Source: Caulochytrium protostelioides
Lineage: Eukaryota > Chytridiomycota > Caulochytriomycetes > Caulochytriales > Caulochytriaceae
Length of the DNA: 64,000 nucleotides
Assembly: GCA_003615045.1 (NCBI GenBank)
Contig: ML014179.1
Location: forward strand, 1 to 64,000
Direction: 5' to 3'
Position 1 is the first letter of the stretch. The number at the start of each line of letters is the position of its first letter. The position numbers and the translations under genes are program-made. Shown here one piece after another: positions 1 through 63,100 of this stretch. The notes beneath the pieces are model-generated. The model saw only the letters and a list, made by a program, of their open reading frames with translations. It was not told where the DNA came from and searched no databases.

Positions 1-1347
1 CGCGCTCCTGAGCTTGAAAATATACGCCAAGAGTTCCATAAGGGCCTCGCCACAGCAGAGCTCCTGTGGCTTTATATCGCTTCCAGCCTTCGTTATCATA
101 GCTCTGACCCCCGCCCAGTCAATTATAAAGGTGTTCAGGTCGAATGGTCCGTTTACAAAGGAAGTGCTCTAACCTCAAAATTGGATAACATGCAGAAGTG
201 CTTCAAACATTTGGTGACGATCGAAACGGTTGTCAGAGATTTGCTGTATGGGATGTATGGCGATACACCTGCAGCCGATCAACCGAAACAGCATGAATCC
301 ATGAAGATACTTCTTCAAAAAGTGCTTGTGCACCTTTCTTCAAAAACTTCGATGAACCTTCTCCAACGACATGATGGGGATGTCCCTGATCTCAGCATTT
401 TCAATCAAGCACTAGACTGGATTTCTGTCGTGCCTGGCTTGAAATACGGACCTGATCGAAACGAGGTCACTCATGGCGATTACTCGTCTATAACAGAGAT
501 CCCTAACAAAGCAGGACTGGAAACTATGATGACAACATTGCAATCTCTTCTCGGCCCAATGATCGGACCCAAATTGCAGGACCGCGACGCAGCCTTAACT
601 CGTACAGTACACGGTAGGGTGGTCTTAACGATTAGAGGATTCGCAACCGGTTCGCGGACTGCCTGGAACAGTCTCTTTGCTCGTAAGGAGGATCGGTTGT
701 ACGAGGTTCTGACGTTTATTTCCGACGATTTGACCGGATCGATTCAATCCACGATGAGCAGCGGAAAGTTATGGCCGTATTTTGAGTTTGGCGTCAATGA
801 GTTCGATCAGCGTGTCGCTCTCTTGAAAAAACTGTCTCCCGATGTGGAAGCGAAACTTCCTCTTTCCACATTCAATTGGAAGCTAGCAGCCCTTATTGGT
901 CCCGAGGACTTCTTCCAGGCCTTTGATCCCCCGATGTCTACCGATGCCAGCAATGTCTACAGCTTTGCCTTTGGAGCGCCTGAGACACCTGCGGCGGAGG
1001 GCACCGGGAGCACACCCGGAGCACCCCCGGGGCGCTCTCCCTCGGTTGATTCTTGGACTGCGGAAAACTTCCCTGGCGTCTATGAGGCGAATGTTCCTGG
1101 GACACCTGCGGCGGAGGGCGCTGGGAGCACACCCAGAGCACACCCGGAGCGCTCTCCCTCGGTTGATCCTTGGCTTGTGGAAAACTTCCCTGACGTCTAT
1201 GGGGCGAATGCTCCTGGGACACCTGTGGCGGAGGGCGCTGGGACACCTGTGGCGGAGGGCGCTGGGAGCACATCCAGAGCACACCCGTTTGTCTTAGAGC
1301 ACACCCCTTTGTCTGGGCTGGGTCACAACGTGATGAGGAATTTTTAA
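1..1347 (+). CDS. Unknown protein with 39-residue C-terminal repeats, 5' end cut off by the window
   Basis: The reading frame is open from the first base of the window, so the true start lies outside it; the first in-window ATG (190) is not necessarily used. I do not recognise the fold. Residues encoded up to about position 960 look globular and mixed in composition. The tail then repeats a Pro/Gly/Ser-rich unit of 39 residues (PGTPAAEG...SPSVDPW...ENFPDVY). The codons are visibly more AT-rich than those of the neighbouring genes, especially before position 900. That suggests a fast-evolving or acquired gene, which is inference. The frame ends at a TAA just before an AT-rich stretch. It faces a TnpB/Fanzor-like relic on the opposite strand. 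No domain assignment is offered. Confidence 0.6.
   Translation, partial: RAPELENIRQEFHKGLATAELLWLYIASSLRYHSSDPRPVNYKGVQVEWSVYKGSALTSKLDNMQKCFKHLVTIETVVRDLLYGMYGDTPAADQPKQHESMKILLQKVLVHLSSKTSMNLLQRHDGDVPDLSIFNQALDWISVVPGLKYGPDRNEVTHGDYSSITEIPNKAGLETMMTTLQSLLGPMIGPKLQDRDAALTRTVHGRVVLTIRGFATGSRTAWNSLFARKEDRLYEVLTFISDDLTGSIQSTMSSGKLWPYFEFGVNEFDQRVALLKKLSPDVEAKLPLSTFNWKLAALIGPEDFFQAFDPPMSTDASNVYSFAFGAPETPAAEGTGSTPGAPPGRSPSVDSWTAENFPGVYEANVPGTPAAEGAGSTPRAHPERSPSVDPWLVENFPDVYGANAPGTPVAEGAGTPVAEGAGSTSRAHPFVLEHTPLSGLGHNVMRNF
984..1290 (+). repeat. 117-bp tandem repeat inside the unknown left-edge gene
   Basis: The motif gacacctg recurs at 984, 1101 and 1218, an exact 117-bp period (39 codons), followed by a truncated 24-bp unit at about 1242. 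The units keep the reading frame and differ by a few substitutions, so this is a coding minisatellite with about 2.5 copies. Confidence 0.85.
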
Positions 1348-1453
1348 CTAATTTTTATCTTGACATGACAACGTATAGGTCCATCCAGCCACAAACATGA
1401 TCGCTTCCTTCGTGCCCCCCAGGGGTCCCCGCGGAGGCAGTTGCGCATTCGGT

Positions 1454-1963
1454 TCATCGTCGGATACGCTTGCCGACCACGGGCTTCCACCTGGCTTGCC
1501 TGGGGATGCGGCACAACGCCATCGGTCTGACCCGTGAGGTCAGGTAGCGTCGGATGTTCAACGCGGCACTGAGATTGTGGTTCACCAACTTGCCGTGGGT
1601 GGCATCACACCACAGCCAACCGGGCCACGGTCCCCTTGCGCTGGCATTGACCGGGTGCCAGGACCACATGCGTCTGGGCATACTCCCGGGTCCTGCGGAT
1701 CCGGTTGACCGCTCTCGGCGCGGTCGGATGGGCGCCCGGACTTGCTGCGGCTCAGTGGGGACTGAGACAAACTGATCGAAGCTTCCGAAACGCTGCGACT
1801 CCGATGGCATAGCTTCCATATGCCTGCGCCATTGCTGCACTATCCCGTCAGCATGGCCGTCTTGCCGTTGAAGGGCACGTGTGGTGGGCAAGGGCAGCTC
1901 GGGCCCTCTCAGGAAGGGGGAATCGCTGTCGATGGACGGGGAGACGGGGGTGGGGACCGCCAT
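1454..1963 (-). pseudogene. Decayed TnpB/Fanzor-like nuclease relic, copy 1 (C-terminal end)
   Basis: Near its end this frame reads HGKLVNHNLSAALNIRRYL, followed by a short Arg-rich tail and a stop. That matches the last RuvC motif and tail of IS605 TnpB and eukaryotic Fanzor proteins (usual form R-D-x-N-A-A-x-N-I). The catalytic Asp is Asn here (NHNLSAALN). Upstream on the same strand (to about 2380) only broken frames are seen, with possible traces of the zinc-finger region, so the copy is not intact. Relics 2 (8.0-8.5 kb) and 3 (23.5 kb) share the motif. Over the core of the motif, 24 of 28 bases match between this copy and copy 3. The family call rests on one motif and could be wrong. Confidence 0.45.
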
Positions 1964-2506
1964 GGACCGGCAAGCGGGGCCGCAGGCGGCTGCGGAAGAC
2001 CCGGCCCCGTGGTGTGAAGCCCTTGAGAGCCGACGCGATCGCTCGATTCAAGCCGCGCTGCAGATCAACCGATGACGGCGACCCCCATCGCCGCATGCCA
2101 AGCGAGCCGAGAGAAAGGTGATTGGACGATAGGAGATGCATGAATGCAATGCGACGTATTGCGCGCACATGACCACTGCCTTCCCGCTCCCTGAGCGAGC
2201 ATTGGGGTGATCAGCTGCCACTGAGCGCCCCTCCATACTGGTCCCGACGTGCTAAACTTGCGCCGTCCCGTTCTGTGGGGCCCGCCATCGCACCTCTTCT
2301 CACGGCCACGGTGTCCTCGAAGGCGCCTGACGATTGGTGACATCCTTGGCGCATCCGATCTCTGACGTCGCTGAATCATCGCTCTTAGCGATCTCTGACG
2401 TCTCTGAGTCTCGGACGTTAGGCCCGAAGCGATAACGCGGTCGGTCCAGCGTACGGTCCACTTCGTGTGTACGAGTGTGTGTGCGACGTCAGGCCGATCT
2501 GTCCAG
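1964..2506. other. Intergenic region between relic 1 and BCKDHB
   Basis: The stretch holds the probable upstream decay of relic 1 on the minus strand and the promoter and 5' UTR of BCKDHB on plus. A short imperfect repeat of gatctctgacgt occurs near 2350-2405. No other gene is supported. Confidence 0.4.
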
Positions 2507-3962
2507 ATGGGCCGACTCGCGCCATATTCACGGCGAGCGCCGTGGCTGCTGCAGCGGCTGTTCCGCCCGACCCCGGCTTCGGCCAGGGAGATGCCGCTGC
2601 GTTCCCGCGGCTACGCGGCCGCGAGCAGCGATGAGCCTCAGTTCATCAATCTGGTCCAGAAATCATCGTTTCTCAACCGCGACGGCGATGCAATCTTCCA
2701 GGACCCCGAATTCTCGAGGATCTCGTCCAGTAAGTGTCGTTGGGGATGATCGACCCATCCCTCAGCCCCCTGTGGATGTCATCCCAACCATGGATCGCTG
2801 CACAGCCGTCTCCCTGGTTCATGAAAGGACGGACCCCTTACCATTTTTTTGATGGCACGCTGTTTCTTTCCCATGATGTCTCTTTCCCATCGGCTTCTTT
2901 CCCATTGGGGGTGACCCCACCGGGCCCCTCCCTGGTATTCTCCGCTGATCCCTTGATCGGTGATGATGATGATCAGAGGAGACCAAAAATGTGAATTACT
3001 ATACGGCCGTGAACGACGCGCTCGCGACGGCGCTTGAGACTGACGAGTCGGCGATCCTCTTTGGCGAGGACGTGGCGTTCGGCGGTGTGTTTCGGTGCTC
3101 GATGGGCCTCGAGTCCCGGTTCGGCAAGGACCGCGTTTTCAACACCCCGCTCTCGGAGCAGGGCCTCGTCGGGTTCGGCATCGGCGTCGCGGCCCAGGGC
3201 GCCACCGCCATAGCCGAGATCCAGTTCGCGGACTACGTGTTTCCCGCTTTCGACCAGATCGTCAATGAGGCGGCGAAGTACCGCTATCGCAGCGGCAACC
3301 AGTTTCACTGCGGCGGACTCACGATCCGCATGCCCGGCATGGCCGTCGGGCACGGCGGCCACTACCACAGCCAGAGCCCCGAAGCCTTCTTTGCCCACGT
3401 GCCGGGCCTCAAATTCGTCGTGCCGCGCAGCCCGGCGCAAGCGAAAGGCCTGTTGCTTGCGGCCATCCGCGACCCCAACCCCGTGATCGTTATGGAGCCC
3501 AAGATCCTGTATCGCGCGGCGACGGAGGACGTGCCTGTCGCGGACTACACGCTACCTCTTGGCAAAGCTGCGGTGCTGCAGGAGGGGCGCGACATGACGA
3601 TTGTCGGTTGGGGCTCGCAGCTGTACACACTCGAAGAAGCCGTGCGCCGCGCCGAGGCGAAGTGGCCCGACCGCTCGTTCGAGCTCATTGATCTCCGTTC
3701 AATCCTGCCGTGGGACGCCGACACAGTGATCCGGTCGGTCAACAAGACCGGGCGGCTGCTGATTGCGCATGAAGCGCCCCTTACGAGCGGATTCGGCGCC
3801 GAAATCGCGGCCACGGTGTCGGAAGCTTGCTTGCTCAAGCTCGAGGCCCCCGTGGCGCGCGTGACGGGCTTCGATACGCCCTTCCCCTTGATCCACGAGA
3901 AATTCTATGTGCCGAGTATCGTGCGCTGCCTGGACAAAATGGAAGCCCTCTTTAACTATTAA
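2507..3962 (+). CDS. BCKDHB: 2-oxoisovalerate (branched-chain 2-oxoacid) dehydrogenase E1 subunit beta
   Basis: This is the beta subunit of the thiamine-diphosphate E1 component of the mitochondrial branched-chain 2-oxoacid dehydrogenase complex, which decarboxylates the 2-oxo acids of Leu, Ile and Val. There are two exons: 2507-2729 and 2977-3962. The 247-nt intron has a perfect GTAAGT donor at 2730 and an ATCAG acceptor ending at 2976; the phases match and the joined sequence reads [19 protein letters not shown], as in other E1-beta proteins. The product is about 402 residues. The N-terminus ([19 protein letters not shown]) is an Arg-rich mitochondrial presequence. Family blocks seen include [51 protein letters not shown] and [12 protein letters not shown]. 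An in-frame GTG at 2465 precedes the start, but the first ATG is at 2507. It converges on acyl-CoA dehydrogenase with about 200 bp between stops. Confidence 0.95.
2730..2976 (+). other. Spliceosomal intron of BCKDHB
   Basis: The donor is GTAAGT and the acceptor ATCAG/AG. Reading through it would hit stop codons in both flanking frames. Removing it joins phase 1 to phase 1 and restores the E1-beta sequence across the junction. Confidence 0.9.
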
Positions 3963-4165
3963 TCACAAGGATGAGTTTTCGTCACAAGCAGAGACTCTGA
4001 GTATATGCAAGAGACGTTGACAAGCGACTCCAAAAGAAAAAAGGGGGAGAGCACTGCGCATGGCATGCCGATGTCGCCCGGCATCCATCCTGTCATAGGG
4101 TCTGCCGTGAGACTGCCATCACGTAGTTGATTTTGGCGGTGATATTCCTCGTTCACATCGCGGCT

Positions 4166-5667
4166 TCAGAGCGCGCTGGCGCCGGCCCTGATCTGGTCTA
4201 GCAGGGAGCGCGAGATGATGAGACGCTGGATCTGGGAAGTGCCCTCGTAGATCATGAAGATCTTGGCGTCCCGCATCAGTTTCTCCACCGGGTACTCGGA
4301 GTTGTAGCCGTTCCCGCCAAAGATCTGGACCGCGTCGGCGGCGTTCTTATTGGCGACTTCCGACGCGAGCGCCTTCGCCATCGCGGCATAGTACGTGTTG
4401 GGCTTGCCCTGGTCGCGCAGCCACGCGGCCTTCCACACGAGCCCGCGCGCTGCTTCGACGCCCATTGCCATATCCGCGAGCATAAATGCGATGGCTTGGT
4501 GATTCGCGATCGCCGTGCCCATCGTCTTGCGCTCCAGCGAGTACTTGGCAGCCTCCTCCAGGGCGCGGCGGCCGAGACCGACCGCAGCCGAGGCCACGAG
4601 AGGCCGGGTGGTATCAAACGCACCCATAGCGATCTTGAAGCCCTTGCCGACCTCGCCGAGCACGTTCGCATGCGGCACCTCGACATTGTCGAAGGTGACG
4701 CCATGTGTAGCGGAGCAACGCTGGCCCATGTTGCGCTCTTTCTTGCCGACAGTGATGCCGGGCGTGTCGGCATCCACGATGAAGCCTGTAAACGCTGAGC
4801 CCGCGCGCGCTTTCGGGTCGGTTTTAGCCAGCACAAAGAACCAGTTGGCGTACTTGCTTCCCGTGATCCAGGACTTGCTGCCATTCAGGACCCACGTGTC
4901 GCCCTTGCGCTCGGCGCGCGTCTGGATGCCTGCGACATCCGAGCCCGCACCGGGCTCGGTCACGCAGTAGGAGCACATGAGCGGCGCCTCCGTCATACGC
5001 GTCAGGTACTTGCGCTTCAGCGCGTCGCTGCCGGCGATAATGAGCGGAGCTTGGGCCAGCCCATTGGCCTCGATGGCTGTCTGCACGCCCGAGCAGCCGT
5101 AGGCGATCTCCTCGGAGACGAGGGCCGAGTCGAACACGCCCAGGCCCAGACCGCCATACGCTTCGGGGATGTGCAGGTTCACGAGGCCGAGTTCCCAGGC
5201 TTTGGAGATGAGATCGACCGGAAACTCGCCGGTCTCGTCGTGGTGAGCCGCCTTCGGGATGACTTCATCCAGCGCGAACTTGCGGGCCAGAAGCTGCATC
5301 TCGTACTGCTCATCGGTCAGCGCGAACCCGGGTGCGCCTGCGGGCTCCGCGGTCGCCGCATGCGCCAAAGCCGGCGCGCGAGTGTTCGCGAAGGTGCGCT
5401 GCGAGTATGCATTTTTATAAGGACCATCCCAACATCAAAACCATATCCTCATAATGGGTGAGACGACATTCGGCATCGACGCGCTCGTGGCAAGAACCGG
5501 CGACAGGGGTGACAGAGAAAAGAGTGCCGTGCCGCGACAGCGCGTCTCGCTATCAAGAAAATATCACGTACCGCTTGAAGAGAAACGAGACCATGAGTCT
5601 GGCTCGTCCATGTCGGACGCAGGGCCGAGCGACCGGCGGCAGCCTGGCGGAGCGCCGCTGCAAGCAT
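4166..5667 (-). CDS. ACADM: Medium-chain acyl-CoA dehydrogenase, mitochondrial
   Basis: This FAD enzyme carries out the first step of mitochondrial beta-oxidation, the alpha,beta-dehydrogenation of medium-chain acyl-CoA, and passes electrons to ETF. Exon 1 is 5667-5572 and exon 2 is 5398-4166. The 173-nt intron has a GTACGT donor and a CGCAG acceptor, both phase 0. The joined N-terminus begins [17 protein letters not shown] and continues LQA|RTFANTR, a typical cleavable presequence. The mature part follows vertebrate MCAD closely: [67 protein letters not shown] and [10 protein letters not shown]. The catalytic base is the Glu of YEGTSQ (residue about 417). The predicted length is 442 residues, close to the family norm. 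Without exon 1 the frame has no ATG at the presequence. MCAD is preferred over short-chain, isobutyryl or isovaleryl enzymes by overall match, but chain-length preference is inferred. Confidence 0.93.
5399..5571 (-). other. Spliceosomal intron of ACADM
   Basis: Read on the minus strand, the donor is GTACGT and the acceptor CGCAG/CG. It separates the short presequence exon from the main body, phase 0 on both sides. Confidence 0.85.
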
Positions 5668-6446
5668 GCTGTTAGCTGATCAGGAAAGATGGATGTCGTC
5701 TGCGGAGGGATCAATATATCGGAAAGAGCGATGGTCCGGATCGGATCTGGTATCAAGGATGGAATGGGTGGGTCGTGTCACCCTATCAAACACAACGATT
5801 AAGCGATCACTCAGCGGACCGATCAGACCAAAGCAAGATGGTTCTGTTGAGGATGGATCTCACCTTATTAATCCGAGGGTGATCCGTCCGTTGCGTGCAC
5901 ACATGATGAGCCTCGTATCGTAAAAATTGCGACCGCGATCTGAGTCGCTGGACGGCGGTGATACATGCGTCGTGGCGGTCGAGACAAGCCTCGGACTCGA
6001 CGAGCGACGACGCGGGCTTCGAGCTGGTTGTTCTCACGTGCCAGCGGGGCCTTCGCTGCCTTCGCTCTCGCGCTTCTGCCGTTTCGGGTGTCGAAGCCGG
6101 CCAAGGCCCGCGAGGTCGGAAGATCTCAGGGCCACCGGTTGGCGCAAGCACCCTACCGCGCACCCGTGAGGCTTAACGCCCCGCAGCTCTCAATGCAGAC
6201 CCCGTTACTCATCAAATCATACCACTGTCCATCGACATCGCGAGCGATGCCCTTGTGATCATTGCGGTCATTATTTCTAAAAGTATGTCACGGCGCTCAC
6301 TTAGAAAAGGCCCGCGCGAGGCGTGTCAAACGAATGTTATGCGGTACATCAGCGATATCGGGTTGTCGATGTTTGTCTGATCACTCTAATCTATCAGGTA
6401 AACGAGATGCACCAAAGAACAGTATCAAAGCTGGTTTCGCCTCGTC
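5668..6446. other. Intergenic region between ACADM and the hydrophobin gene
   Basis: This 0.8-kb stretch holds the ACADM upstream region (minus strand) and the hydrophobin 3' flank. ORFs here are short, lie on both strands and show no recognisable domain. Nothing further is seen. Confidence 0.4.
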
Positions 6447-6932
6447 TTAAAGACCTGGAACGCCGCCGAGGGGCCCTTTCCCGCGCTTGGGCGCGCCCTG
6501 GCCCGGCGGGACGGCAAAGCAGTTTGACGCCGAGGGCCCCGACCCGGCGGCGACGTTGCAGCAGACGATGTTCATGTTGCAGATGTTAGTTTGAGAGGTC
6601 GCGAGAATCGTGATCGAGATGGGCGAGCAGGACGCCGCAATGACAAAGTTGTTGAGGATACCCGTCAGGATGCCCGAGGCCTCGGCGTCGGACTCGATGG
6701 TCTGCTCGCAGCACGCCATGTAGGAGTTGGACGCACACTGCAGGGTCTGCCCATCGTTCTGCAGGCTTCGGACGCGCTCGTGCTCGGGCGGCGCGACCAA
6801 CGGCTTCTGCGCGACGCCCATGGCGCGTGGGATCGCGGGCCGCTGCACGCTGGCAGCGGCGGGCCGCTGCGCGCTGGCCGTGGCGGCCAGGCTGCACGCG
6901 AGCACTGCGCTGAGGAAGGCGCGAGCAAGCAT
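6447..6932 (-). CDS. Class I hydrophobin-like secreted protein
   Basis: The 161-residue protein starts with a signal peptide (MLARAFLSAVLACSLAATASA). A Pro/Ala/Arg-rich linker follows, then a C-terminal domain with exactly eight cysteines outside the signal. Spacing is C-x7-CC-x26-C-x15-C-x5-CC-x12-C, inside the class I hydrophobin range. The hallmark CSPI follows the third cysteine cluster, and the loop before it is hydrophobic (ILTGILNNFVIAAS). Hydrophobins self-assemble at air-water interfaces and coat aerial structures; that role is family knowledge, not shown here. Codon use is GC-rich like the neighbours, with no sign of a foreign insert. The ATG at 6932 is the only start that includes the signal peptide. 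A palindromic TATAAA element lies about 250 bp upstream. Hydrophobins are usually described from Dikarya, which makes this copy notable. Confidence 0.8.
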   Translation of the reverse strand: MLARAFLSAVLACSLAATASAQRPAAASVQRPAIPRAMGVAQKPLVAPPEHERVRSLQNDGQTLQCASNSYMACCEQTIESDAEASGILTGILNNFVIAASCSPISITILATSQTNICNMNIVCCNVAAGSGPSASNCFAVPPGQGAPKRGKGPLGGVPGL

Positions 6933-7749
6933 ATTGCGATGATTAAAAGCGACGAGGAGAAAGAAGACCGCAGAATGGGTCCGAGGTGACGGAGCAACGA
7001 ATCAGCATAAACCGGGGCACGGTGTAGATATTAATGATCAGCAATGCCGTGGGGCGACAAAAGCGTGAGGACAGCAGAAATGATGGTCGAGCTCCCTCTA
7101 TCCTCTAAGGCACGGATTGCAGTTTCCCACGATGTTAGATGAAGCATTCACCCCTTATTCAGCCCTCAGTCCGCGTCCTTTATAAAGGATCGTATCAAAT
7201 GTTCCGCAAGCACGAGCCTGCCGAGTCAGGTCGCGTCTTTCGTCTGGCCGGCTCAAAGAATCTGTGCCGCAGGATGCCATGGCCGAGGAAAGGAGTGACG
7301 CGGCGATCGCTTGTGCCGTGCGTATCCCCTGTCTCCGCTTCTTTCCCTCGCCCTCCATCCACGATGGCGCTCTCACTCACTGTCTTGCTCGCTGCTTGCA
7401 GCACGCGCCTTCTTCCGTTTACTCCGTACTTCCGTTCTCTCTTGGCAGCGCCAATGGGTTCAGCATCGCCAATGACTACTGCTCGTAGTATGCATGATTC
7501 AATTTTCGCGCCACGTCATGGAGTGCCAGAGGAGAGGAAAGGCCAGTCCATGGGAGCTGGACGACGCGAGCATCAGTCCGACCATGCCAGAGACGCCCAT
7601 CGGTTCGCCGCATACGCTTAGATGAAGTTCAAGCCCTGCGAGAGTGGACAGGCCAAAAGATTGGAGGGTCATGTCAAAACTTTTTTTTTTTCGCGAGTCG
7701 ATGCGGACCGCTGAAGAAGGCATTCCGCCTTGACAGAAACCAATCAAGC
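6933..7749. other. Hydrophobin upstream region
   Basis: This 0.8-kb region presumably contains the hydrophobin promoter. A small plus-strand frame around 7364-7621 starts with a hydrophobic MALSLTVLLAACS stretch, but lacks any family signature and is not called as a gene. A run of T/A follows near 7680. Confidence 0.35.
7177..7188. promoter_or_regulatory. Palindromic TATA-like element CCTTTATAAAGG
   Basis: It is a perfect 12-nt palindrome containing TATAAA on both strands, about 250 bp upstream of the hydrophobin ATG on the minus strand. A promoter role is inferred from sequence and distance only. Confidence 0.35.
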
Positions 7750-8538
7750 GTGGTCGAGAGGAATGAACCGGCGAAGGATCATATGAAAATTCGTCTTCGC
7801 GGACTAAGACGCGACTGCAAGGCGTTCCTTCGACGACGATGTGAAAGTATCGCGCGGACCACGGTAGGATGCGTCCCCACGACGAGTAATCAACTAGGCT
7901 GCTCAGAGAAGCTGAACCAATGCAAGGACAAAACGGCGATGATGGTTAAGGCCACGCTGCTGAAGCACCTGCAAGGAGACGACAAAAAGCAGCTCCGGGG
8001 CACCATCCAAGCGCGTGTTAACGTCTTCGCTACCATATCGCCGGTATCGTGCTATCCACCCTGTGGAAGCGATGATTTATCAGCGAAGTGATTATGGCGG
8101 CGCAGCTGTCTGACCTGACGTGCACAGCCTTCTATCGGCAGCTGATACTGGACGTCGCGGGCACCTCTAAGGCAGATCCCGACGTGCTCGACTGCTGTCG
8201 GCAGTACCAGCTGCTGGCAGCCAAGCTGCCCAGGCAGCGCCATTTCGGCCATAGCAGCATTTACACACACGGCGCTACGAAGCACCAGACTATTCTTAGC
8301 AACCATTACGTGCTAAGCTTCGGGACAGGAGTCTTGAAGTATCTGCGTTTCTTCCAGAGGGCCAAGGGCCTGACGGGACCGCTGCATCGGATGGCCGATG
8401 CGCCAGGACTTGGAAACCATGAAGCGGTTGCCTACAGTTAGTGCAGTTATGATTCGCGACCTCAATGTCGCCCTGCATATCCGTCGCTGCCTGACCTTGC
8501 TCGTTAGACTTACTGCGCTATGCCTCGTTGCGGAGTAA
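7750..8538 (+). pseudogene. Decayed TnpB/Fanzor-like nuclease relic, copy 2 (N- and C-terminal remnants)
   Basis: The C-terminal end reads MIRDLNVALHIRRCL in the frame ending at the TAA of 8536-8538, with the Asp codon at 8458-8460. This is the R-D-x-N-A-A-x-N-I RuvC-III motif of TnpB/Fanzor, with the Asp kept. The preceding residues are CIGWPMRQDLETMKRLP. Upstream frames (7750-8091, then 8088-8441) hold Lys/Arg-rich and HYVLSF-type segments that resemble the N-terminal part of fungal Fanzor-like proteins. The frames are broken and the central part is missing, so this looks like an internally deleted dead copy. The N-terminal similarity is an impression from reading and is weaker than the C-terminal motif. 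Confidence 0.45.
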
Positions 8539-8543
8539 GACAA

Positions 8544-8931
8544 GGAGCAGGCCATGATGGGCGAGCCCATTCGATGGTGAACCGGGTCCGAACTGTTTAC
8601 CCGAGGGATGATGTGAGACCATGGCACTCGTGTTGAGTTTTCTCTCCGGACAGCCTATATGTTCTTAATATGATATTAGTAGCGAGGCTGGCTCGACCGC
8701 AGCAGGCGGGAGAACGGTAATGGTCGCCGCCATGGAATCCAAGCTTCAGGAACATTTGATTCGATAACTGCCGAAGTATGAAAGTAAGGATCTTATTTTT
8801 ATATGTGTATCGTGGAACAAAGACGTGCGGTGGCACCGATGGGCTCGAACGTTTCATCATCGCCGCTCTGAGCACGGGGAAGAAATTCAGCCAGTCTTAT
8901 TGTTCGTGGAAGGGAAAGGCCTAAGATGCGT
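8544..8931. other. AT-richer spacer downstream of the His-rich gene
   Basis: About 390 bp lie between relic 2 and the 3' end of the His/Asp-rich gene. No ORF of note is present; the stretch is visibly AT-richer than the coding DNA around it. Confidence 0.4.
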
Positions 8932-11187
8932 TCACTCGTCCTCATCGCCATCCTGGCGGGCCTTGATGTTCTCGAACTGACGGGCCAGCTCCTCTTGATG
9001 CGCCTCCTGGGCCGACCCGGCCTGGTCCTGGCGGTTGGCGCGGCAGCTGTTGTTCTCGTCCTCGTCGTCCTCGTCGTCGTCGCCGTCGCAGTCGACGCCA
9101 CGCTCGCCCTCGACCGTCGGGTCCGCCTCAGCGGTCATCGCGTCCTGCGGCTGCATCGCCTGAGACTGCGCGTCCTGCATCTCCTGCGCTGGGACCTCCT
9201 GAGCCTGGTCCGCCTGAACCTGGGCGGCGCCCGCCGGCGCTGCATCAGCATTCACTTTGGCATCCCCAGCTGCACCGGCAGCCTGATCAGCGGCGTCGCC
9301 GTTCTTGTGGCCGATCTTGCCGATCCAGTTGTGCGCCGTGGCCTTCTGGTCCGCCTGGCCGGCCGCCGGGTGCGCCGCATCGGCTTTGTAGCCCTTGTGG
9401 CCCTTGCGCGCCAGCTGGGTCTTCGTCCACGTCCGGCCGTCGCGGGTGGCGGGATCCTCCTGCTGCCACGGGTGGTCGTCGTGGTCGTGCGCGTCGTGGT
9501 TCGCGTGGTCGTGATCGCGGTCGCGGTGCGCCGGCTGGTCGCCGCGTCGGTTCAAGCGGGGGTCACGGGGGGCCTTCGGGCCCGTGCCGCTGCGAGGGCC
9601 GTAGCCCATGTTGCCGCGCGCATGCAGGCGCTCATTGCCATGCTCGACCATCTCGGCGTCTTCGGCCATCTCGGCACCCTCAGGGTGCACTGCCGTGGCA
9701 TCCTCCGCGGCCGGCGTCTTTGCCTTCCACCCATCGTCGTTCCAGTCACCATGGTGTTCATCACCGTGGTACTCATCACCATGATGTTCGTCACCGTGGT
9801 GCTCATCGCCGTGGTGCTCGTCGCCGTGGTGCTCGTCGCCGTGGTGCTCGTCGCCGTGGTGCTCATCACCATGGTGGTCGTAGCCATGGTGCTCATCACC
9901 GTGGTGCTCGTCACCATGGTGCTCAACACCGTGGTGCTCGTCGCCGTGATGCTCATCACCGTGGTGCTCATCACCATGGTGGTCGTAGCCATGGTGGTCG
10001 TAGCCATGGTGTTTGTCGTCACCATTGCTGGCGCGAGCATGCAGACGGGCGTGGGCTTTCACCGGTGCGGCCTTCTTGGCGGGGGCGGCGCCGTGGCGGC
10101 CCGGCGCGTTCTTCCAGTTGTGCCCGGGGTAGTCGTGGCCATAGCCGTCGTGGCCATAGCCGTCGTGGCCATAGCCGTCGTGGCCATAGCCGTCGTGGCC
10201 ATAGCCGTCGTGACCGTGGCCATCGTGACCGAGGTCGTCGTGGCCGTAGCCATCGTGCCCGTAGCCGTCGTGGCCGTAGCCGTGGTTGTTTTCCCAACCT
10301 TTCCCAGGCCCGTGCCCAGGGACGGGACTGTCATGAGCAATTTCGTCCGCATCCCCCACGTACTTTTGGTCATCGGCCGCCGCCTGCTGGGTCTGGTCGC
10401 GATTGGCATTCTCTTGCGGCGGCGTCGGGCTGCGCCGCAGGCGTGTCAGCTTCTCGGGTTCGCCGCGGAGCGTCTCGCGGAGCTCGTCATCATGCTGCCA
10501 GCCATGATCATGGCCATGGCCATGGTGGTGGTCGTCGTCATCGTAGTCGTGATCGTGGTCGTGGACATAGTCGTGGTGATCGTCATCTAGCCAGCCGTGG
10601 TGATCGTCGTGATGGTCATTGTGCAGGTCGTCGTCATCGTGGTCCTGGTGGTCGTGGTCAAAGTCAGGGCCCAGGTGGTCGTCCCCGTCGTAGTGGCGGT
10701 CAGCATTCTCACCAGCGGCGTCGACGGCGTCAGCAGCAGCGTTGTTGGGCGGCGCCGCCCCGTCCGGCGCCATGGCGCCACGGGCCTCATTTTCGTCGTT
10801 GCCGTCATCAGCCTGCGGCGCATTGTTCGCCGCGGCAGGCGCCGCGGGAGCCTCGGCAGGCGCCGCCACAGCCGCGGGAGCCTCGGCCGCCGCCGGCGCC
10901 AGTATCTTGGCATTGGCCGCCGGCGCCTTGCGCAGGGACGTTTCCTTGTCGTTGACGACGGCCCAATCAAACACATCGTCGTGGGCGACATCGCGGCGGA
11001 CGCGGAAGCTGCGGCGGGAGAGCCCGCCGAGGACCGGGAGGTCGCGAAGGAGGTCGCTGGGCCCGGGCGCCGAGCGAGACGCGTCCGCGCCGGCGTCCGC
11101 CACGGTCTGATGGATGTCGCCGGCCTCCGTCTGGGCGTTGGCCGCCATGGCTAGCATGGACATGGTGATAAACTTCATCCACTGCAT
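8932..11187 (-). CDS. Secreted His/Asp/Gly-rich repeat protein
   Basis: The 751-residue protein begins with a signal peptide (MQWMKFITMSMLAMAANA). An Ala-rich segment follows, then a strongly acidic His/Asp block (DHDHDYDDDDHHHGHGHDH), a tandem block of GYGHD pentapeptides, and a second tandem block of HHGDE/HHGYD pentapeptides. The C-terminal third is Ala/Asp/Gln-rich. Several basic sites (SRRSF, VRRD, LRRSP, LNRRGD) and two LHAR motifs flank the blocks and could be kexin-type processing sites. No enzyme domain is present. The His density suggests metal binding (Zn, Ni or Cu), which is inference. Frame choice is firm: the long ORF on the opposite strand is a low-complexity shadow of the repeats. 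A TATATAAA lies about 400 bp upstream. The hydrophobin, another secreted protein, is the next gene on the same strand. Confidence 0.75.
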   Translation of the reverse strand: MQWMKFITMSMLAMAANAQTEAGDIHQTVADAGADASRSAPGPSDLLRDLPVLGGLSRRSFRVRRDVAHDDVFDWAVVNDKETSLRKAPAANAKILAPAAAEAPAAVAAPAEAPAAPAAANNAPQADDGNDENEARGAMAPDGAAPPNNAAADAVDAAGENADRHYDGDDHLGPDFDHDHQDHDDDDLHNDHHDDHHGWLDDDHHDYVHDHDHDYDDDDHHHGHGHDHGWQHDDELRETLRGEPEKLTRLRRSPTPPQENANRDQTQQAAADDQKYVGDADEIAHDSPVPGHGPGKGWENNHGYGHDGYGHDGYGHDDLGHDGHGHDGYGHDGYGHDGYGHDGYGHDGYGHDYPGHNWKNAPGRHGAAPAKKAAPVKAHARLHARASNGDDKHHGYDHHGYDHHGDEHHGDEHHGDEHHGVEHHGDEHHGDEHHGYDHHGDEHHGDEHHGDEHHGDEHHGDEHHGDEHHGDEYHGDEHHGDWNDDGWKAKTPAAEDATAVHPEGAEMAEDAEMVEHGNERLHARGNMGYGPRSGTGPKAPRDPRLNRRGDQPAHRDRDHDHANHDAHDHDDHPWQQEDPATRDGRTWTKTQLARKGHKGYKADAAHPAAGQADQKATAHNWIGKIGHKNGDAADQAAGAAGDAKVNADAAPAGAAQVQADQAQEVPAQEMQDAQSQAMQPQDAMTAEADPTVEGERGVDCDGDDDEDDEDENNSCRANRQDQAGSAQEAHQEELARQFENIKARQDGDEDE
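9745..10016 (-). repeat. 15-bp coding minisatellite (HHGDE/HHGYD units)
   Basis: A run of 15-bp units encodes His-His-Gly-Asp-Glu with variants (Val, Tyr-Asp). The units are nearly identical in DNA sequence, indicating recent copy-number change. Confidence 0.85.
10128..10290 (-). repeat. 15-bp coding minisatellite (GYGHD units)
   Basis: Nearly identical 15-bp units encode Gly-Tyr-Gly-His-Asp, with a few DLGHD/GHGHD variants. It is separate in sequence from the second pentapeptide block in the same gene. Confidence 0.85.
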
Positions 11188-39967: not shown

Positions 39968-42900
39968 ATGGGCGCGTCGCTCTCGACCCGGTTCGCCGAA
40001 GCGGCGCCGCCCGAGACCTCGGCGGTTCAGAAGGCGCTGCTGCAGGATCTGATTGCCGCTGTGCAGTCCATTGCCACGGAGCACCTGAGTGCAGCGCGCG
40101 CCGAGTTCGTCAAGCCCCTGCAGTGGCCGACGACCCTGCGTCCGACGCACTTTGCCGCCGGCACCGAGTGGAAGACCGATACCAAGTAAGCGGCATGCTC
40201 GACACCCGGCTGGGTCCATGAGCACAAACCAAAATCGATGGCACTCACCCAACCATGATGTGTATGGCGTGGACGGTATGGATGATGGATGATATGATCT
40301 CGATTCGAGTAGAAACCCGAAACTCCCCGTGGTCTCGCAAGCGCTGCGCACCGATGGCAGTCCACTGCTCGCGCTGGAACAGATCGTCGCCGGCGAAAAG
40401 TATCACCTGCGCGTGAGCTCCTTCGAGTACCTACACCATGCGCTGCAGCTCGCGGACACCGCCAAGATGGGCGAGATCCAGGCGCTCTGCCGCGTCAACA
40501 CGACGCCCCTGGATACCATCTTTGGCCACAGCGGCACCAACGCCCTCGCGGATCTGTTTGACCGCTTCAACCACGAGGCCGACCCCGTCCAAAAAGAGAT
40601 GGCCGGCCGTCTCTACCGCCTGTTACTGCTCATCAACTCGTTCGATATTCAGATGCTCGCGACCAACGTCGACAAGGCCCAGAACGCGCAGCACCTGACC
40701 GTCGACGCGGTACGCGACGAGCTGGTGCTCCTGCAGGAGTTTGCGGGCGCCGCGGCGCAGCAGCCGCTCGCGGCGATCGACTGGAGCAATTCCGCAGCGT
40801 TCAAGAACGGCTACCACGCGCCGCCGTGGCGCCAGATCCAGGGCGAGCTCGGCTACATCACCGTCGCGACCCGGGAAGGCGAGCGCCTCGTCGTCACGGC
40901 CCACCGCAGTGGCTACTTCGTCAACAAGGGCTTTTATACCGACGAGCAGGGCAGCACCCAGCTCAACTACGAGCCCGCGGGGACCACGACGTACCCGACG
41001 CTCGTGGCGCTGATGAAGGCCCAGTCACCGCACTTTGCCCGCACGATCGACGCCCAGCCCTACGGATGGAACGCGCAGTACCACAACGCGAGCTTCGACG
41101 TCGCGCCCTCGGGCGCCGCCTACGCGGCCTCCGCGGCCGCGGGCAAACACTCGGACCCGTCGGACCTCTCGGACGCTGCGGGCCTCGCCTCGGGCATCGG
41201 GGCAGGCGGCCGCGGCAAGAACACCGTGAACGCGAACGACGACGCCTCCAACGCCAACGGCGGCAAAGCTGCGCTCTCGGGTCGCCGCAAGCTTGGCGGC
41301 GCGGCCAAGAAGGAGGGCGGGATGGCCGCGTCCGCGGCGGCCGCCGGTATCGGCGCCGCCAAGGACAAGGACGGCCTGTCCTTGAAGTGGCGTGCGCTCG
41401 AATCGAACCGTGGGGAAGCCAGCCCCGGCGGCGCCGCCAAGACGGCTGGCAGCAAGGGTGCCTCGGTGACGGGCGTGCATCTGCCGCCGCTGCCGGGCAA
41501 GCCGCGCGCGGTCCAGCGTCAGGGCAGCCTGCGCGATACTAAAGCTGCGGCTGCGGTTGCTGCGGGCCAGACTGCCAACGAAGCGCCGGCATCGACGTCG
41601 GCGGGATCGGCTGCGTCCGCGTCCGACGCGGTAGACCCGCAAGCATATGATAGTGAAGACGAGGACAGCACGCCCGAAGAAGAGGGCTCGGACAAGCGCC
41701 ACGAGGCTGCGTACCTCCCCGCCGAGTATTACCAGATCCAGAAGCTGGTCAAGTATATGCGCTGCGGCAACCCGACGGCGACGATCATTGCGATCTGCAG
41801 CCTGCGTGACTTTGACCTGAACCACGAACCGTGCCAGCTCGCAATCCGCGATGTGGGCGGCTTGGACACGCTGGTGAATCTGCTGGACACCGAGAACATC
41901 AAGTGCAAGCTGAGCTCGCTGAAGGTGTTGCGCGATGTGACACAGAACATGAGTATCCGCGCGGCGATGGCGCAGCTGGGCGGCATGCAGGCGCTCGTGG
42001 GGCTGTTAGACGATGACGGCGCTGAGACCGAAGTCCACTGCCTCGCCGCCGAGACGATCGCCCACTGCGCACGCAACAAGGTCAACCGCCGTGCGATCCG
42101 TCTGTACGGCGGCATCGACAAACTTGTCAAATTGCTGAAGGCGCATGTGAGCAAGCAGTCGCAGCAGCCGTCGCAGTCGCCGTCATCGCAGTCGCAGCAA
42201 CAGCAGCCGTTGTCGTCGTTCCAACAGGGCGCGGCGAACGATGAAAGCGTTGCGGTCTCGGTGGTTCAGGCGCTCGTGAGCTGCTGCAAGAGCGCCAAGA
42301 ACAAGCGGGCGATCCTGGCCGCGGGCGCGATGCCGCTGCTCGCGCAGCTGCTCGCGTCGTCCAACGAGCGCCTGCTGATCCCGGTCGTCGCGATCCTTCA
42401 GGAGTGCGCCGTCGACGAGAGCTACCGCACGCTGATCCGGTCGTCGGGCATGCTCCAGTTCCTGGTGACGAACCTCTCGACCAAGAACATGGAGCTCCAG
42501 ACGAACTGTGCGAGCGCCATCTTCCGCTGCGCCGAGGACGCCGAGGCCCGCTCGCTCGTCCGCTCGTACGGCGTCCTGACACCGCTCGTCTCGCTGCTCG
42601 AGACCACCGCCCACAAGGACCTGCTCGCGGCCGTGACGGGGGCGATCTGGAAGTGTGCGCTTGACCCGCAGAACGCCGTCGCGTTTTCCAAGTGCACCCG
42701 CAAGCTCGTCATGCTCCTCGACAATCAGCCCGAAGACGTGCTCATCAACGTCGTTGGCGCGCTCGGTGCCGCCGCACAGACGCCGGAGGGCCGTCAAGCC
42801 ATCCGTGAGGCGAACGGAATTACGAGCCTCGTCGGGCTGCTTAAGGGCACCAACCAGGCGCTGCTCGTCAACGTCACCACGGCGGTGGGCGCGTGTGCGC

Positions 42901-43559
42901 ACGACCCCGAGTGTATGGCCGTCATCGACCGCCTCGACGGCGTGCGGCTGCTGTGGTCGCTGCTGAAGAGCCCGAGCTCGGCGGTGCAGGCCTCGGCCGC
43001 GTGGGCCATCAGCCCCTGCATCGAGAACGCCAAGGAGGCCGGCGAAATGGTCCGCTCCTTTGTCGGCGGCCTCGAGCTGATCGTCAGCCTGCTGAAGAGC
43101 GACGACCCCGAGGTACTCGCCAGCGTCTGCGCCGCGATCGCCAACATCGCCAAGGACGAGGAGAACCTGGCCGTGATTACGGACCACGCCGTCGTGCCCA
43201 TGCTTGCCAAGCTCACCACGACGCGCAGCGACCGCCTCCGCCGCCACCTCGCGGAAGCCATTGCCCGCTGCTGCCGGTGGGGCAACAACTCCGTCGCCTT
43301 CGGCGCAGCCGGCGCCGTCGCCCCGCTCGTCAAGTACCTGCGCAGCCGCGATGAAGCCGTGCACCAGAGCACCGCCCGTGCCCTCCACCAGCTCTCGGCC
43401 GACCCGGACAACTGCATCACGATGCACGAGAACGGTGTCGTCCAGCTCCTGCTCGGCATGGTCGGATCCAGCGACCCCGCGCTCCAGGAGGCTAGTGCGG
43501 GCACGATCGGCAATATCCGTCGTCTCGCGCTTGCTAGCGAGAAGAGCAGCTTGCACTAA
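39968..43559 (+). CDS. ODAD2: Outer dynein arm docking complex subunit 2 (ARMC4)
   Basis: Exon 1 (39968-40185) encodes MGASLSTRFAEAA and EFVKPLQWPTTLRPTHF, matching the vertebrate ARMC4 start. Exon 2 (40313-43559) completes a protein of about 1154 residues. The intron has a GTAAGC donor and a GTAG acceptor; the junction reads TDTK|NPKLPVV. The N-terminal domain contains HAPPWRQIQGELGYI, as in ARMC4. A disordered Ala/Gly/Lys-rich insert follows, then LPAEYYQIQKLVKYM and about ten armadillo repeats. The C-terminal repeats are very conserved: DRLDGVRLLWSLLKS, AGEMVRSFVGGLELIVSLLKS, VCAAIANIAKDEENLAVITDH and NCITMHENGVVQLLLGMVGS. ODAD2 anchors outer dynein arms on ciliary doublets, so its presence implies a motile flagellum. 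A Ser/Gln-rich loop interrupts one repeat. It converges on the transporter gene. Confidence 0.95.
40186..40312 (+). other. Spliceosomal intron of ODAD2
   Basis: It is 127 nt long, with a GTAAGC donor and a GTAG/AA acceptor, phase 2. A TAA spans the donor in the unspliced frame. A GAG acceptor three bases upstream would also keep frame. Confidence 0.85.
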
Positions 43560-55982: not shown

Positions 55983-57146
55983 CTGAGGCGGACAACCGGC
56001 GGCCGAGGTGGATTTCAAGTGCGGTACCGCGTTGTCATCCTTCAGGGACACAGGCGGCCCGCCTCCGCCCCCGTTTTCTTTCCGCTTAACGCGGCGCAAC
56101 CGTCGCCCTTCCGTGTTGCGCGCCTCGTGGCGTCATTTCGTCCCGAACGCTGCCGACGACGTCGCGCCGGGGCCGCCACCGCCACCGCCGCCACCGCCGC
56201 CACGAGTCGCCATCCAGGGTTTCCCTCGAGCCCTTTCCCGGCTCGCGCTGACCCCGCACCTCCACGGGGAGGCCACTCACCCCCGCACCCACACGGAGCA
56301 GCGACGCGCATTAACGAGTCGGGTCACGGCTCGCCGTCGTCGTCTCCACGGCCTCGGTCGCGCCAGCGTCCGTCGTCGCCTGATTCGCGGCGCCTATCGT
56401 TTCTCGGGGTCCAGGTCATCCAGCGCGGCAGCTCGTCTTCGGCGCTCCTGGCACGCGCGAAGCTCACACTGCGCCCGGCCACGCGCGCCTCGGCATTGCA
56501 TTCATCGCCACGGTCCCGGCCATCGCCACAAAAAAAGACGGTTGCTTCGTCGCTGCGCGTGCCCGCGTGCATTCCTTGCCTGCCAGCCCGTTCGCGGCCG
56601 ACCCTGGCCGCTCGTCCTCGCCACCGGCGCTGCGAAGCTGAGAGCGCGCCGTCGCTTCGTCTCGCTGTCTGCTGGAGGTCCTGCCGCCCGGTGCCTCGGG
56701 GGCCGTGCATGCGTCTGCCGCTTCATCCTCCTCGTCCTCTGAGTCTCTCCGAGTCGCTCCGAGTCTCCCCGCGGCTCCCGCTCTCGCTGCAGATACGCCT
56801 CGCTTTCCTGCGCGTGCATGCGACCCACGCGTCGGCATCCTCGCAGGCGTCACAACGCCAATCCGTGTCCGGTGCGTGGGGTATCGCCCTCCCGAGGTGT
56901 GGGCGCGTGGCCGCCGCCGGCAGCCATCGCCTGCCACCGCCTGCGACACCGCGATCGACATTCTTGGCAGCCGCTCAGTTCATACCGGGACCCGGCCAGC
57001 GCCAGCCTGGGGCCTGGCAAGCGCGCGCTTGCGCACCCGACGTCGTTGGGGCGGGGCGGGCGCCGTGCCTGCCGTACTGAGCAGGTCGCGCCACGACGAC
57101 GCCTTTCCCGCTTCGTCATCCCCCATCTGGGGAACCTCTGCATTCG

Positions 57147-60100
57147 ATGGCCGACCGAGGTTTCGGTCCGGCCTGCTGTTCTTCCAGCGCTTCGTCGACG
57201 CGCTCCCGTGCCGTCCGCCACCGCTCGGCGTCGGCTTCCTTGACCACGACGACGCAGCCGCGTCACCACGAGACGGAGACGTCGGAAACGTCGACCCCGC
57301 ATCGGCCCGCTTATCCGTCCTATCCGGCGTACCCGTCCTCGCCACGGACCTCGTCGCCGCTGGTGTCCCCTTCGGCGTATATGCATCGCGCAACGCGTAC
57401 CAACGACGTCGCGAGATCCACCCAGTTGGACGACGCCGAGACCAGCGACTCATCCGGTGATTCGTACTTTCCCGACGGCGGCAACGATTACGGTTTCGGA
57501 TCCGGCACCGCCAACGGTGCGTATGATCCTACGATCGACGATCCCGTAGCGGACTTCGACCTGAACGCCGTCTCCATGGCGTCGCTACTCGCCGCGCCTG
57601 GCGCGAAGCAGCCGTCGTCGTCGTCGTCGGCCATGCTGTCCCATTCGATGCGGGTGTCCCGTACGCGGACCCAGACCGAGACTCAGGGCGGTGAGTCGAT
57701 GCCAATGCAGCGCCCAGGGCTCGCCCGCCAGGCCAGCTCATCGTGCTACATCACGCCGCAGCCGCCGCACCTCCCACGGGCAGGCGCGCCGCCACGCTGG
57801 CGCCAGCGCCACCTCTTCCGGCTCGGCGTCTGCTGCTGCGTGCTCAGCCTCGTGCCCACCCTCACCACCCTCTTCCATCACCACCACCAGCAGGTCGTGG
57901 CGCCGTGGTGGTGGTCGACCTTGTGGGCCTGGCTCGCATGGACCCCGCCCGCCGTTTCGGTCAGCGTCGGCGATCTGCTCGCCAGGCCTATGGCACTGCC
58001 CATCGAGCACCAGCAGGTCGCGACGCTCGTGCTGACCTTGATCGGCATCCTGTGTCTCTTGCTCGACCAGGCCCAGTGGACCCGGTTCAGCCCGGCCGCC
58101 GCCGCCGAGGCCGCGGCCATGCGCCGTCGCTTGACGACCCAGGCCACACAGACCATGTCGACCCCCGCTTACTCCTCCAGCGTGCTGGCGCCGGTGCCCA
58201 CGGCGACGCCTGCCTCAGTGCCTGCGTCAATGCCCGCGTCAGCGCCCGCGGTCATGCACGGCGCACCAGATTTGACCGTGACGGCGCCGTCGCCGCCGGC
58301 AACCGTGTCGGAATCCGCCACGGCCGTCGCCGACTCGGCCAAAGACGTGGCGCCGTCGGCGCCGACGCGGGCCCCGACACCGTCGCCGACGCGGGCCCCC
58401 GCCACGTTCATAGCAGCTGACGGCGAGACGGCGACCACTGCCCCCGACGCCGAGCACTACCATGCCATCCGGCACGTGCTCAGCTCCATCTTCTCCATGA
58501 CGTGGGACATGGGGCTCCCACGCAGCGCCACGGCGCCCTCGAGTCGGAGTGGCGCTAGCCGCAGCGGGCCCGGCTCGCCGCGCGCCGCCGGCCATGGCGC
58601 CGCCACCGCCGCCGCCGGGTCCACGGCCTTCGATGCCGATGGCGCCGCCGAAGCCCACGATGCGCTGCCCGGCGCTGCGGCCGGCGCCGACTTGCCCATG
58701 AATGACCAGGCCGGCGGCGTGGACGCGGACGCGGATGACGACGATCCCGAAATTGCCTGCAGCCCCGCCGTCGCGCACCAGCTCGGCTACCCCGAGATCC
58801 ACGAGACCACGCGACTGCGCACGCTTCTGCGGCCCGACGATTATGCGCGCTACCGCGATGCGCTGATGGGGCCGAACGACCTTCATGCGCCCGTCTGGGA
58901 GGCCTCGCAGCCCGCGACGGCCGCCGCGACGGCCGCCATGTCGGCCATGGGCGTCACGGACCCGTCGCTCGCGGGCGCCACGCCGTCGGCGACGGGCACA
59001 TCATCGACAACCACGCCGTCGGCGGCAGCGGCGGCCATGCCGGCGGAACTGAAGACCGAGCGCCGGCACGACCACATCCTGCACGTGCATACGCGTGCCG
59101 GCCACCGTCTCGTGTGGCGGGTGCTGGGTGCGCGCATCGTCCCCTCAGCGCCGCGTTCACCCGCGGATCCGGCGTCGCACTCCGAGCATTCGCACTCGTC
59201 GCTCCCGATGGCTCAGAACCCTTTCGACGCCCTAGACGCCGACGGGGTGCCACAGCTGCACCACCAGGCGGCGCCGGAAGACCCGCGGAGCGCGTTCGGC
59301 ATTATCCTGGATCTGACCGAGGCCGGGCGCCAGGAGAGCCAGCTCCGCGCCGCCGAAGCAGTGACGCGCCACGTGCTGGATATCGTGCCATGCACGATCT
59401 TTGCGCTCAATGACGCCAACGACCTCGTGTTCCTCAACCGCACGGGCCAGCGGCTGTTTTCGATCCCGCCGGACCGCTTGCAGGACTACGACCTGCTCGA
59501 CTTTGTCCACCCGGACGACCGCGAGGCCGTCGCTGCCGCGCGCCAGCGCTGCTCCGAGCACAACGAGACCATCACGCTCGATACTTTCCGCTTGCACGTG
59601 CCGCCCGACCAGCGCGAGCTCTGGGTCGCGCTCTCCTTCTCACGCTTCACGCCGCCCCGGCTCACGGCCGACGGCCACCGCACCGCCTCCTCGATCGCCT
59701 CCTCGTCGGCGGCGGGCTCGACGAGCGGCTCAGCAGCGTCCCCGCTTTCGAACGCGTCGTCACTGTCGTCCACGTCGCCGCCGCCCGCGTCGTTGCCACC
59801 ACCCCCGGCGGGCGGGCACCCGGCCTCCTCGTGGCGGCGGCCCCCCGGCGCCCCTGCCCCGCACCACCACCACCACGGCTTGTTCGAAATGGCGGACCAC
59901 GGGATGGTGATTGGCACGATCGCTGATGTGACCGACAGCCATCTGGCGCAGAGCAAGCTGGCCGAGAACAACCAGGCGCTTGATCTGGCGGTCCAACAGG
60001 CCGAGAATGCTGTCGCGGCCAAAGCGGCGTGGGTCTCGACCACGAGCCACGAGGTCCGCACCCCGCTCGGCGGCATTCTGGGTCTGCTCGGGATGCTGGC

Positions 60101-63100
60101 CGAGACGACCATGACGGACGAGCAGGAAGAACTGATCGCCGGCATTCGCGACTGCTCTGAGGGGCTGCTGCTCATCGTCAACGACATCCTCGATTTCAGC
60201 CGCGTCGAGTCAGGCAAGCTCCAGCTTGAGGACTGGCCCTTCTCCATCGAGCAGTGCCTCCAGAACGCGCTGTACCTACTCGATATCAAAGCCTCACAGA
60301 AGGGGCTCAGCCTGACCTACGAGATCGCCGACGGCACGCCCACGATGCTGCTGGGCGACGCGAACCGCATCCGCCAGATCATTCTCAACCTCGCTGGCAA
60401 CGCGGTGCGCTTTACCGACTCCGGCTTCATCACCATCCGCGTGCGCACCAAGACCCCTGAGGACGAGCGTCGCGGACTCGCGGCGCGTCGTCGCGTCGAA
60501 GAAGCCATCGCCCAGGCCAACTGCGACGCCCAGCCGTCCTCCGCCAAACCGACGACGCCGGGTGGCCTCCATGGTGTACCCGCAGGAACCCCGCCACCGC
60601 CGCCGATATTGCCAGTTGGTTCGCAGTCCACCCTGCCGCCTGCAGTGGCCGGCCGCAGTGGCGCCCTCGCCGCCCCCGCGCCCACGCTTTCCGCGGGAAG
60701 CGACGGCGGCGCGTCCGCTTCATCGTCGTCGTCGTCGTCGTCGTTGGCGGCGGCGGTCGACTTGGCCGAACAGCATGCGACGCCGCTCCGCCTTCCGCCG
60801 CGCCGCCCCGCGCCGCCGCTCTCGCCACAGCGCGCCTTCACGCCGTCGAGTGCCCAGACTTCGCCCTCCCCGACGTCCTCGACGGCGGTGCAGGGCCCGC
60901 TCGCCAGCAGCGCCAGCGCCACGGGCAGCGTGCGCAGTCATGTGAAGCCGTTCGCCTCCAGTGGCAGCGTCAGCAGCGAATACCCGCACGCAGGCGATTC
61001 ACACGACACGTGGCATTCGCACGTGGCGCTGCCCTCGCCCGACACGCCGACGGCGCCGGTCGAGCTGCTCTTCGAGGTCGCCGACAGTGGTTGCGGGATC
61101 CCCGAGTCGGCGATCCCGCGGCTCTTCCAGAGCTTCTCCCAAGTCGACAATTCGATCAGCCGCAAGTACGGTGGCACGGGTCTCGGGCTCGCGATCTGCA
61201 AGAGCCTCGTGGAGATGATGCACGGTCAGATCTGGGTCGAGAGCGAGGTCGGGGCCGGGTCCACCTTCTTCTTCACCATCCGCCTCGCCGCCTTCCAGAC
61301 GGTCCCGACGACCGAGCGCTCGCCGGAGGGCAAGCGCGCCGGCGGTGTGGCCTCGCATCGCGCCAGCACCGCGACGGCTGCGTTGGCGCACGGCAGCGGG
61401 TCCCTGAGCGCCGATGCGGCGACTACGCCGGCCGGCTCGATCGCGGCGGCGGCCGCGGCGCCATCGACGGGCGACCCTGCGACGGCGCGAGCAACCATGA
61501 CCGACCCCGTGGCCCCGTCGACGGGCTTCTTGGCCACGGGCGCGCGGTCGACGCCGACGGGATCGACGGCCGCGGACGGGACGACGGTGCCGCCGCAGCA
61601 CGTGCCGCGGGCCCAGATCAAGCAGCTGATGGATCAGCGTCGCGAGGAGCGCGCCAAATTCGGGAGCCGCTACCCGCTGCGCGTGCTGCTGGCCGAAGAC
61701 AACCAGATTAACACGAAACTATGCGTGCGCTTCCTGCAGCGCTTGGGCCTCACGTGCGACCTGGCGAGCAACGGCCTCGAAGCCTACCAAGCCGCGATCA
61801 CCCGCGACTACGACATTATCCTGATGGACGTGATCATGCCCTCGGTGTCCGGGCTCGAAGCCTCGCAGATGATCCGCGCCTACGTGCCCCCCGAGCGCCA
61901 GCCCCTCATCGTCGCCCTGACCGCCAACGCGCTCGAGATGGACCGTGAGAAGTGCTTCATGTCCGGTATGGACGCCCACGTGTCGAAACCCATCAAAGCC
62001 GAGAACATGTTCCGCGTGCTGCATATCCTGGGCCGCGAAGTCATGGCCCGACGCCACTACCGTGCGGCCAATCCTGCGCACTACCGCCACATGATGCCGC
62101 GCTACCCGCCGCACGAGTCGATCGAGGTGCGGCGGCGCCGCTGGAAGCGCTACTGCGACGATGACGATGTGTCCTCGTCCTCGTCGTCCGGCGCATCCGA
62201 TGCCGTAGGATCCGAGATCGGCATCAACGCCGCGGGCGCCGACGGCCTCGCAGCGCCTGCCGCCGTCGCCGCTCCCTCCGTTGGCAGCGCCATGGCGTCG
62301 CCGCTCTCCTCGGGCGCCGGTTCGGCGTCCCAGCGGTCGCACACGCAGCGCCAACGGCCGCCGCTGCATAGCCTTGGCACCGTGGACCTCCCGCCACGGC
62401 CGGCCTCCTCAACGGTGAGCGCCGCGACCGGGTCGACCGCGGGCTCGACGACGCCCAGCACGCGGTTCACGCCGCACGCCCGGCTGGACGCCGTCTGGAT
62501 CGAACTGATGGGGGCCGACTTCCCGAGCCCGGTCCTAGATGCGGATGCCGTCGACGGCCCGAACGGCAGCGCCCTCGGCGGCGGCGGCTTCATCGACGCG
62601 AACGGCGCGGCACTGAGTGTCGTATCGCCGACGGGTGAGCCGCCTCGTGAGCCCCCTACGTTCCCCGTGCTGTCCTCGTCTGCGCCGGCGCCCAGCGCCG
62701 CGCACGTCGTGGTGCCTTCGGCGGCAGCGACGTCCGCTGCTACGATGGCCACGCCGCCGACCGTTTCCACGGTGGCCGCTGCAGCGCCCTCGTCCACACC
62801 GATTCAGCTCTCACCCCTGCAGTCCTTCACGCCTTTGTCGACGCCACCGGCCGTGGCCGAGGCCGATGGCTCCGCGCTACCGGACGCCACAGCCAGCTTC
62901 CACGCCGCGGCCGCTTCGTCAGACGTCGCAGGTGGGCCCACCAAAGCCGTTTCCCACCCAACCACCATGGCCAGTGTTCCCCGCCCGCCGACCGCCGGCT
63001 CGACCGGCTCGGTGTCCCGCGCATCGGACGCCGTCTTGGCCCAGAACGTGGCTGCGGCAGTGATCAAAGACGATAAGGCGCGTTTCCTGGACGCTGCGCC

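Follow-up and report, generated by a model that had tools for sequence, protein, structure and literature searches.

A divergent class I-type hydrophobin in the flagellated mycoparasite Caulochytrium protostelioides belongs to a family of about twenty

The window analysed here, a stretch of 64,000 nucleotides, is part of contig C69 (92,065 bases) of the Caulochytrium protostelioides assembly, which comprises 20,945,662 bases in 337 contigs. Near its beginning lies a hydrophobin frame on the minus strand, with the ATG at 6932, the last codon ending at 6450 and the stop at 6447-6449, and all 161 codons are readable without an intron (Table 1). A ninth cysteine, outside the core, sits in the hydrophobic leader, and a similar hydrophobic N-terminus was recognized by eye in the 19 other copies found in the genome. 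The remaining eight cysteines are spaced C-x7-CC-x26-C-x15-C-x5-CC-x12-C, exactly the 7-26-15-5-12 arrangement given by a previous sequence-only reading of this DNA, and the CSPI motif named there is present at the fourth cysteine in the alignment. The tail beyond the eighth cysteine measures 23 aa, and the glycine preceding that cysteine, which is nearly invariant in the aligned relatives, is missing from the window copy. A TATA-like TTTATAAA lies on the minus strand at window positions 7179-7186, some 247 bases upstream of the start codon.

Table 1. Features of the window discussed in the text
Feature	Position	Strand	Description and basis
Hydrophobin CDS	6447..6932	minus	161 aa + stop, single exon; match to PF01185 and to the paralogue profile
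Putative signal peptide, residues 1-22	6867..6932	minus	hydrophobic N-terminus, judged by eye
Eight-cysteine hydrophobin core, residues 66-138	6519..6737	minus	spacing and alignment
ODAD2 (ARMC4) stop-to-stop frame	40293..43556	plus	Armadillo repeats; E 9.4e-252 to outer dynein arm-docking complex subunit 2 (solved chain)

When all six reading frames of the window were cut into stop-to-stop frames, 604 had 60 aa or more, and among these the hydrophobin frame alone shows the class I spacing pattern. When the protein was shuffled with its first 22 residues kept, none of 2000 shuffles fitted even a slightly widened version of the pattern, which rules out a chance arrangement of cysteines. All five loops of the window copy fall inside the class I consensus C-X5-7-CC-X19-39-C-X8-23-C-X5-CC-X6-18-C-X2-13 given in PMC3879219, and the tail alone is too long (23 against 2-13 residues). 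Since tails of at least 14 residues also occur in 8 of the 19 other copies, we take tail length as a loose feature of the class. The class II spacing described in the same source (x9, x11, x14-16, x8, x10; PMC3879219) is absent, as 26 residues separate the third and fourth cysteines. The Pfam profile PF01185 matches the window protein at E 5.8e-4 with 20.9 bits, under the curated cut-off of 23. The earlier claim that the protein fits class I exactly thus holds for the five loops, and has to be given up for the tail and for the Pfam cut-off.

The relatives within the genome carry the assignment further. A profile built from the 19 other copies scores the window protein at 65.4 bits, while the best shuffle reaches 10.6 (1991 of the 2000 shuffles scored). 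The window sequence by itself matched no solved structure; a profile built from 18 copies, the two longest of the 20 being left out, matches solved hydrophobins, the best being 2nbh at 6.5e-07. At E 0.01, PF01185 and Eas (PF22354) are the only families matched among 18 copies, and PF01185 is the only one in the other two, with no class II profile among them. As far as sequence comparison can tell, the genome family settles the membership of the window gene among class I-type hydrophobins.

A search of the assembly with PF01185 gave 19 places, all above the cut-off, and the window copy was not among them. The window protein used as the query also gave 19 places including itself, covering 18 of the 19 PF01185 places at E 3e-15 to 1e-4. 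The search for further copies thus ended with a union of at least 20 hydrophobin places on 14 contigs, 13 of them besides C69, and these counts are lower bounds. The eight-cysteine core is present in 20 of 20 copies and the class I spacing pattern fits 19, the exception being the copy on C25, with 60 residues between the third and fourth cysteines. The copies form two sub-types, one with the spacing x7-26-15-5-12/13 (14 copies, the window copy included) and one with x6-26-15-5-13 (5 copies, plus the C25 copy with other loop lengths). The core identity between the window copy and its closest relative is 42%, the minimum among the 20 copies. Clusters of three copies at C40:39512-42174, two at C60:24957-27811 and two at C177:6650-10201 were observed, suggesting local duplication. 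Three hydrophobins (L012:1483-2682 and L009:1105-1746 on C177, L014:559-1824 on C25) have long N-terminal regions rich in proline, threonine and alanine, with 132-319 residues ahead of the first core cysteine; one C60 copy has 121, and the C25 protein contains a poly-threonine run.

Hydrophobins in C. protostelioides are a correct finding that has been known since 2018. Ahrendt et al. reported 14 putative hydrophobins in this species and one in Mortierella elongata, and presented them as the first outside Dikarya (PMC6784888), so the novelty implied by the sequence-only reading falls. Their proteins belong to the same species and family and are described as group 1-like with eight cysteines; the 14 came from a single-cell proteome and a 10.6 Mb co-assembly, against 20 places in a 20.9 Mb assembly here (PMC6784888). 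No other report of chytrid hydrophobins appeared among the matches listed in the openly licensed literature, judged by title or by the start of the abstract. The present analysis makes small additions, namely the 20 places, the two cysteine-spacing sub-types and a window copy too divergent for the Pfam cut-off. Among database proteins of C. protostelioides, P0004 is identical to the C24 copy and P0002 reads as a C177 copy with a later start. Another protein, P0003 (CAUPRSCDRAFT_11043, on an 8,804-base contig of the single-cell assembly), differs by eye from every copy translated here; the true number of hydrophobins may therefore exceed 20, or the assemblies may differ.

The ODAD2 gene that had been noticed on the same contig was confirmed at the E value in Table 1, and a Vac8-like Armadillo protein was ruled out as the identity of this frame (65 bits against 841 to ODAD2). 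Further flagellar genes were found elsewhere in the assembly, i.e., radial spoke protein 3 on C156, IFT46 on C15 and a PF04712 Radial_spoke family protein on C51, and together with ODAD2 they support the proposed flagellated fungus. On contig C15, IFT46 lies at 36 kb and one of the hydrophobins at 211 kb, a second physical link between a flagellar gene and the hydrophobins, which makes contamination very unlikely. The published C. protostelioides material was raised in dual culture with Sordaria, from which the hydrophobin could have come, and a mis-joined contig would have the same effect; the GC content of the window's first 10 kb (0.56-0.62, against 0.60-0.76 for most of the rest) would agree with such an origin. 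The hydrophobin GC3 of 0.86, however, lies within the 0.71-0.89 of ten other window frames measured, as the earlier remark on codons resembling those of the neighbours had it, the 19 diverged relatives are spread over 13 other contigs, the window contains no N, and protein searches gave only the window protein itself and proteins named Caulochytrium. Given the GC3, the diverged paralogues, the C15 linkage and the gap-free window, we reject contamination from the Sordaria host and regard a foreign or mis-joined hydrophobin as extremely improbable. Three frames measured within positions 1-10000 do not differ in GC3 despite the lower overall GC of this part, which probably reflects longer intergenic stretches.

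The family itself could have reached Caulochytrium in more than one way. A recent transfer was ruled out because the protein searches gave no close Dikarya match, and the strong divergence among the paralogues likewise indicates that any transfer was not recent. One search gave a single match among 118 candidates, the protein itself, a second gave two matches among 61 candidates, both from Caulochytrium, and a further search, in which the 8000 candidates sharing most words were scored, gave four matches, namely the protein itself and three named Caulochytrium. As these searches need shared five-residue words, they would overlook remote Dikarya hydrophobins, and finding none of those is no evidence. 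We lean slightly toward an old transfer with a Dikarya fungus as donor and later expansion, an origin compatible with the main reading given below. It is favoured by the account of Ahrendt et al., which knew no early-diverging hydrophobin besides the one Mortierella protein (PMC6784888). Three of the five loops of the 6-26-15-5-13 sub-type (6, 26 and 13) agree with the basidiomycete class I row of PMC3879219 (6, 26-33, 12-13, 6, 13), which is a further point in its favour, and the two middle loops differ. The mycoparasitic life would also offer an opportunity for such an exchange. The failure of the word-based searches to return a Dikarya relative, within the reach just described, the divergence of the paralogues and the presence of only four Dikarya sequences in the tree weigh on the other side.

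Comparison with solved hydrophobins bears on the same question. Within the 6-26-15-5-13 sub-type, one copy matches 2nbh at E 3e-09, which also speaks for an old transfer. The structure 2nbh, which we take to be SC16 of Schizophyllum commune, has the eight-cysteine core in common with the window copy, with a core identity of 30%. SC16 of S. commune is placed in class IB (PMC5385502). The ascomycete class I protein MPG1 (PDB 2n4o) likewise has the eight cysteines and the hydrophobin family in common with the window copy, at 27% core identity. The spacing between the fourth and fifth cysteines is 15 in the window copy, compared with 18-21 in the table for ascomycete class I (PMC3879219).

The family could alternatively go back to the ancestor shared by chytrids and Dikarya, with later loss in most lines that form no aerial structures. 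This would also be compatible with the main reading, and we consider it possible but rather less than probable. The two Caulochytrium sub-types are deeply diverged, a Mortierella protein has been published (PMC6784888), and in the unconstrained tree the four Dikarya sequences join the x6-26-15-5-13 sub-type, with support of 82 on the branch parting them from the x7 sub-type, all of which favours such an ancestry. Many losses would be required, however, and a tree with a single Caulochytrium clade is equally good (log-likelihood difference 0.00006, AU p 0.465 against the unconstrained tree). Because the tree was built on cores of about 73 residues with four outside sequences, all from Dikarya, it does not separate transfer from old inheritance. 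It is an unlikely extension of the ancestral origin that the x7-26-15-5-12/13 lineage, with 14 of the 20 copies and the divergent window copy among them, split very early from Dikarya class I; if true, this would make the family older than Dikarya and retained only in builders of aerial structures. The hydrophobins of Caulochytrium may thus go back to a single transfer, to several, or to old inheritance.

Whatever the origin, the main reading is that the window gene belongs to a set of some 20 class I-type hydrophobins in a zoosporic mycoparasite, with a stalk-coating role that we infer from the family; we give it a probability of roughly 0.88. Hydrophobins of class I leave the cell and form amphipathic films, and insoluble rodlet films at interfaces are a mark of the class. 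By analogy with the family, the Caulochytrium protein would be secreted and folded around four disulfides, and would assemble as an amphipathic film at the air-water or wall surface. Such a film would make the aerial stalk and the sporangium water-repellent and let both rise from the water film, and a film on the aerial stalks and sporangia is likely the role of the Caulochytrium hydrophobins. The window copy itself may see little use, or its role may have changed. The flagellum is required by the zoospore and the hydrophobins by the aerial stage, so that each gene set would act at its own stage of a single life cycle. Of the options offered by the sequence-only reading, that of a fungus which forms zoospores as well as aerial structures and uses its hydrophobin is thereby supported, since flagellar genes were found and the aerial stalks of C. 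protostelioides have been described (PMC6784888). The presence of hydrophobins in a still-swimming fungus links the family to aerial growth and not to Dikarya as a group, a point made already in 2018.

Scans of the window for tRNA and Rfam families found nothing. A 5.8S rRNA search of the assembly found none among the 39 of 640 candidates scored; the rDNA may be missing from the assembly. At the far end of the window, positions 57081-63125 of the plus strand hold an open frame of 2015 aa with PAS, histidine kinase and receiver domains, i.e., a hybrid histidine kinase.
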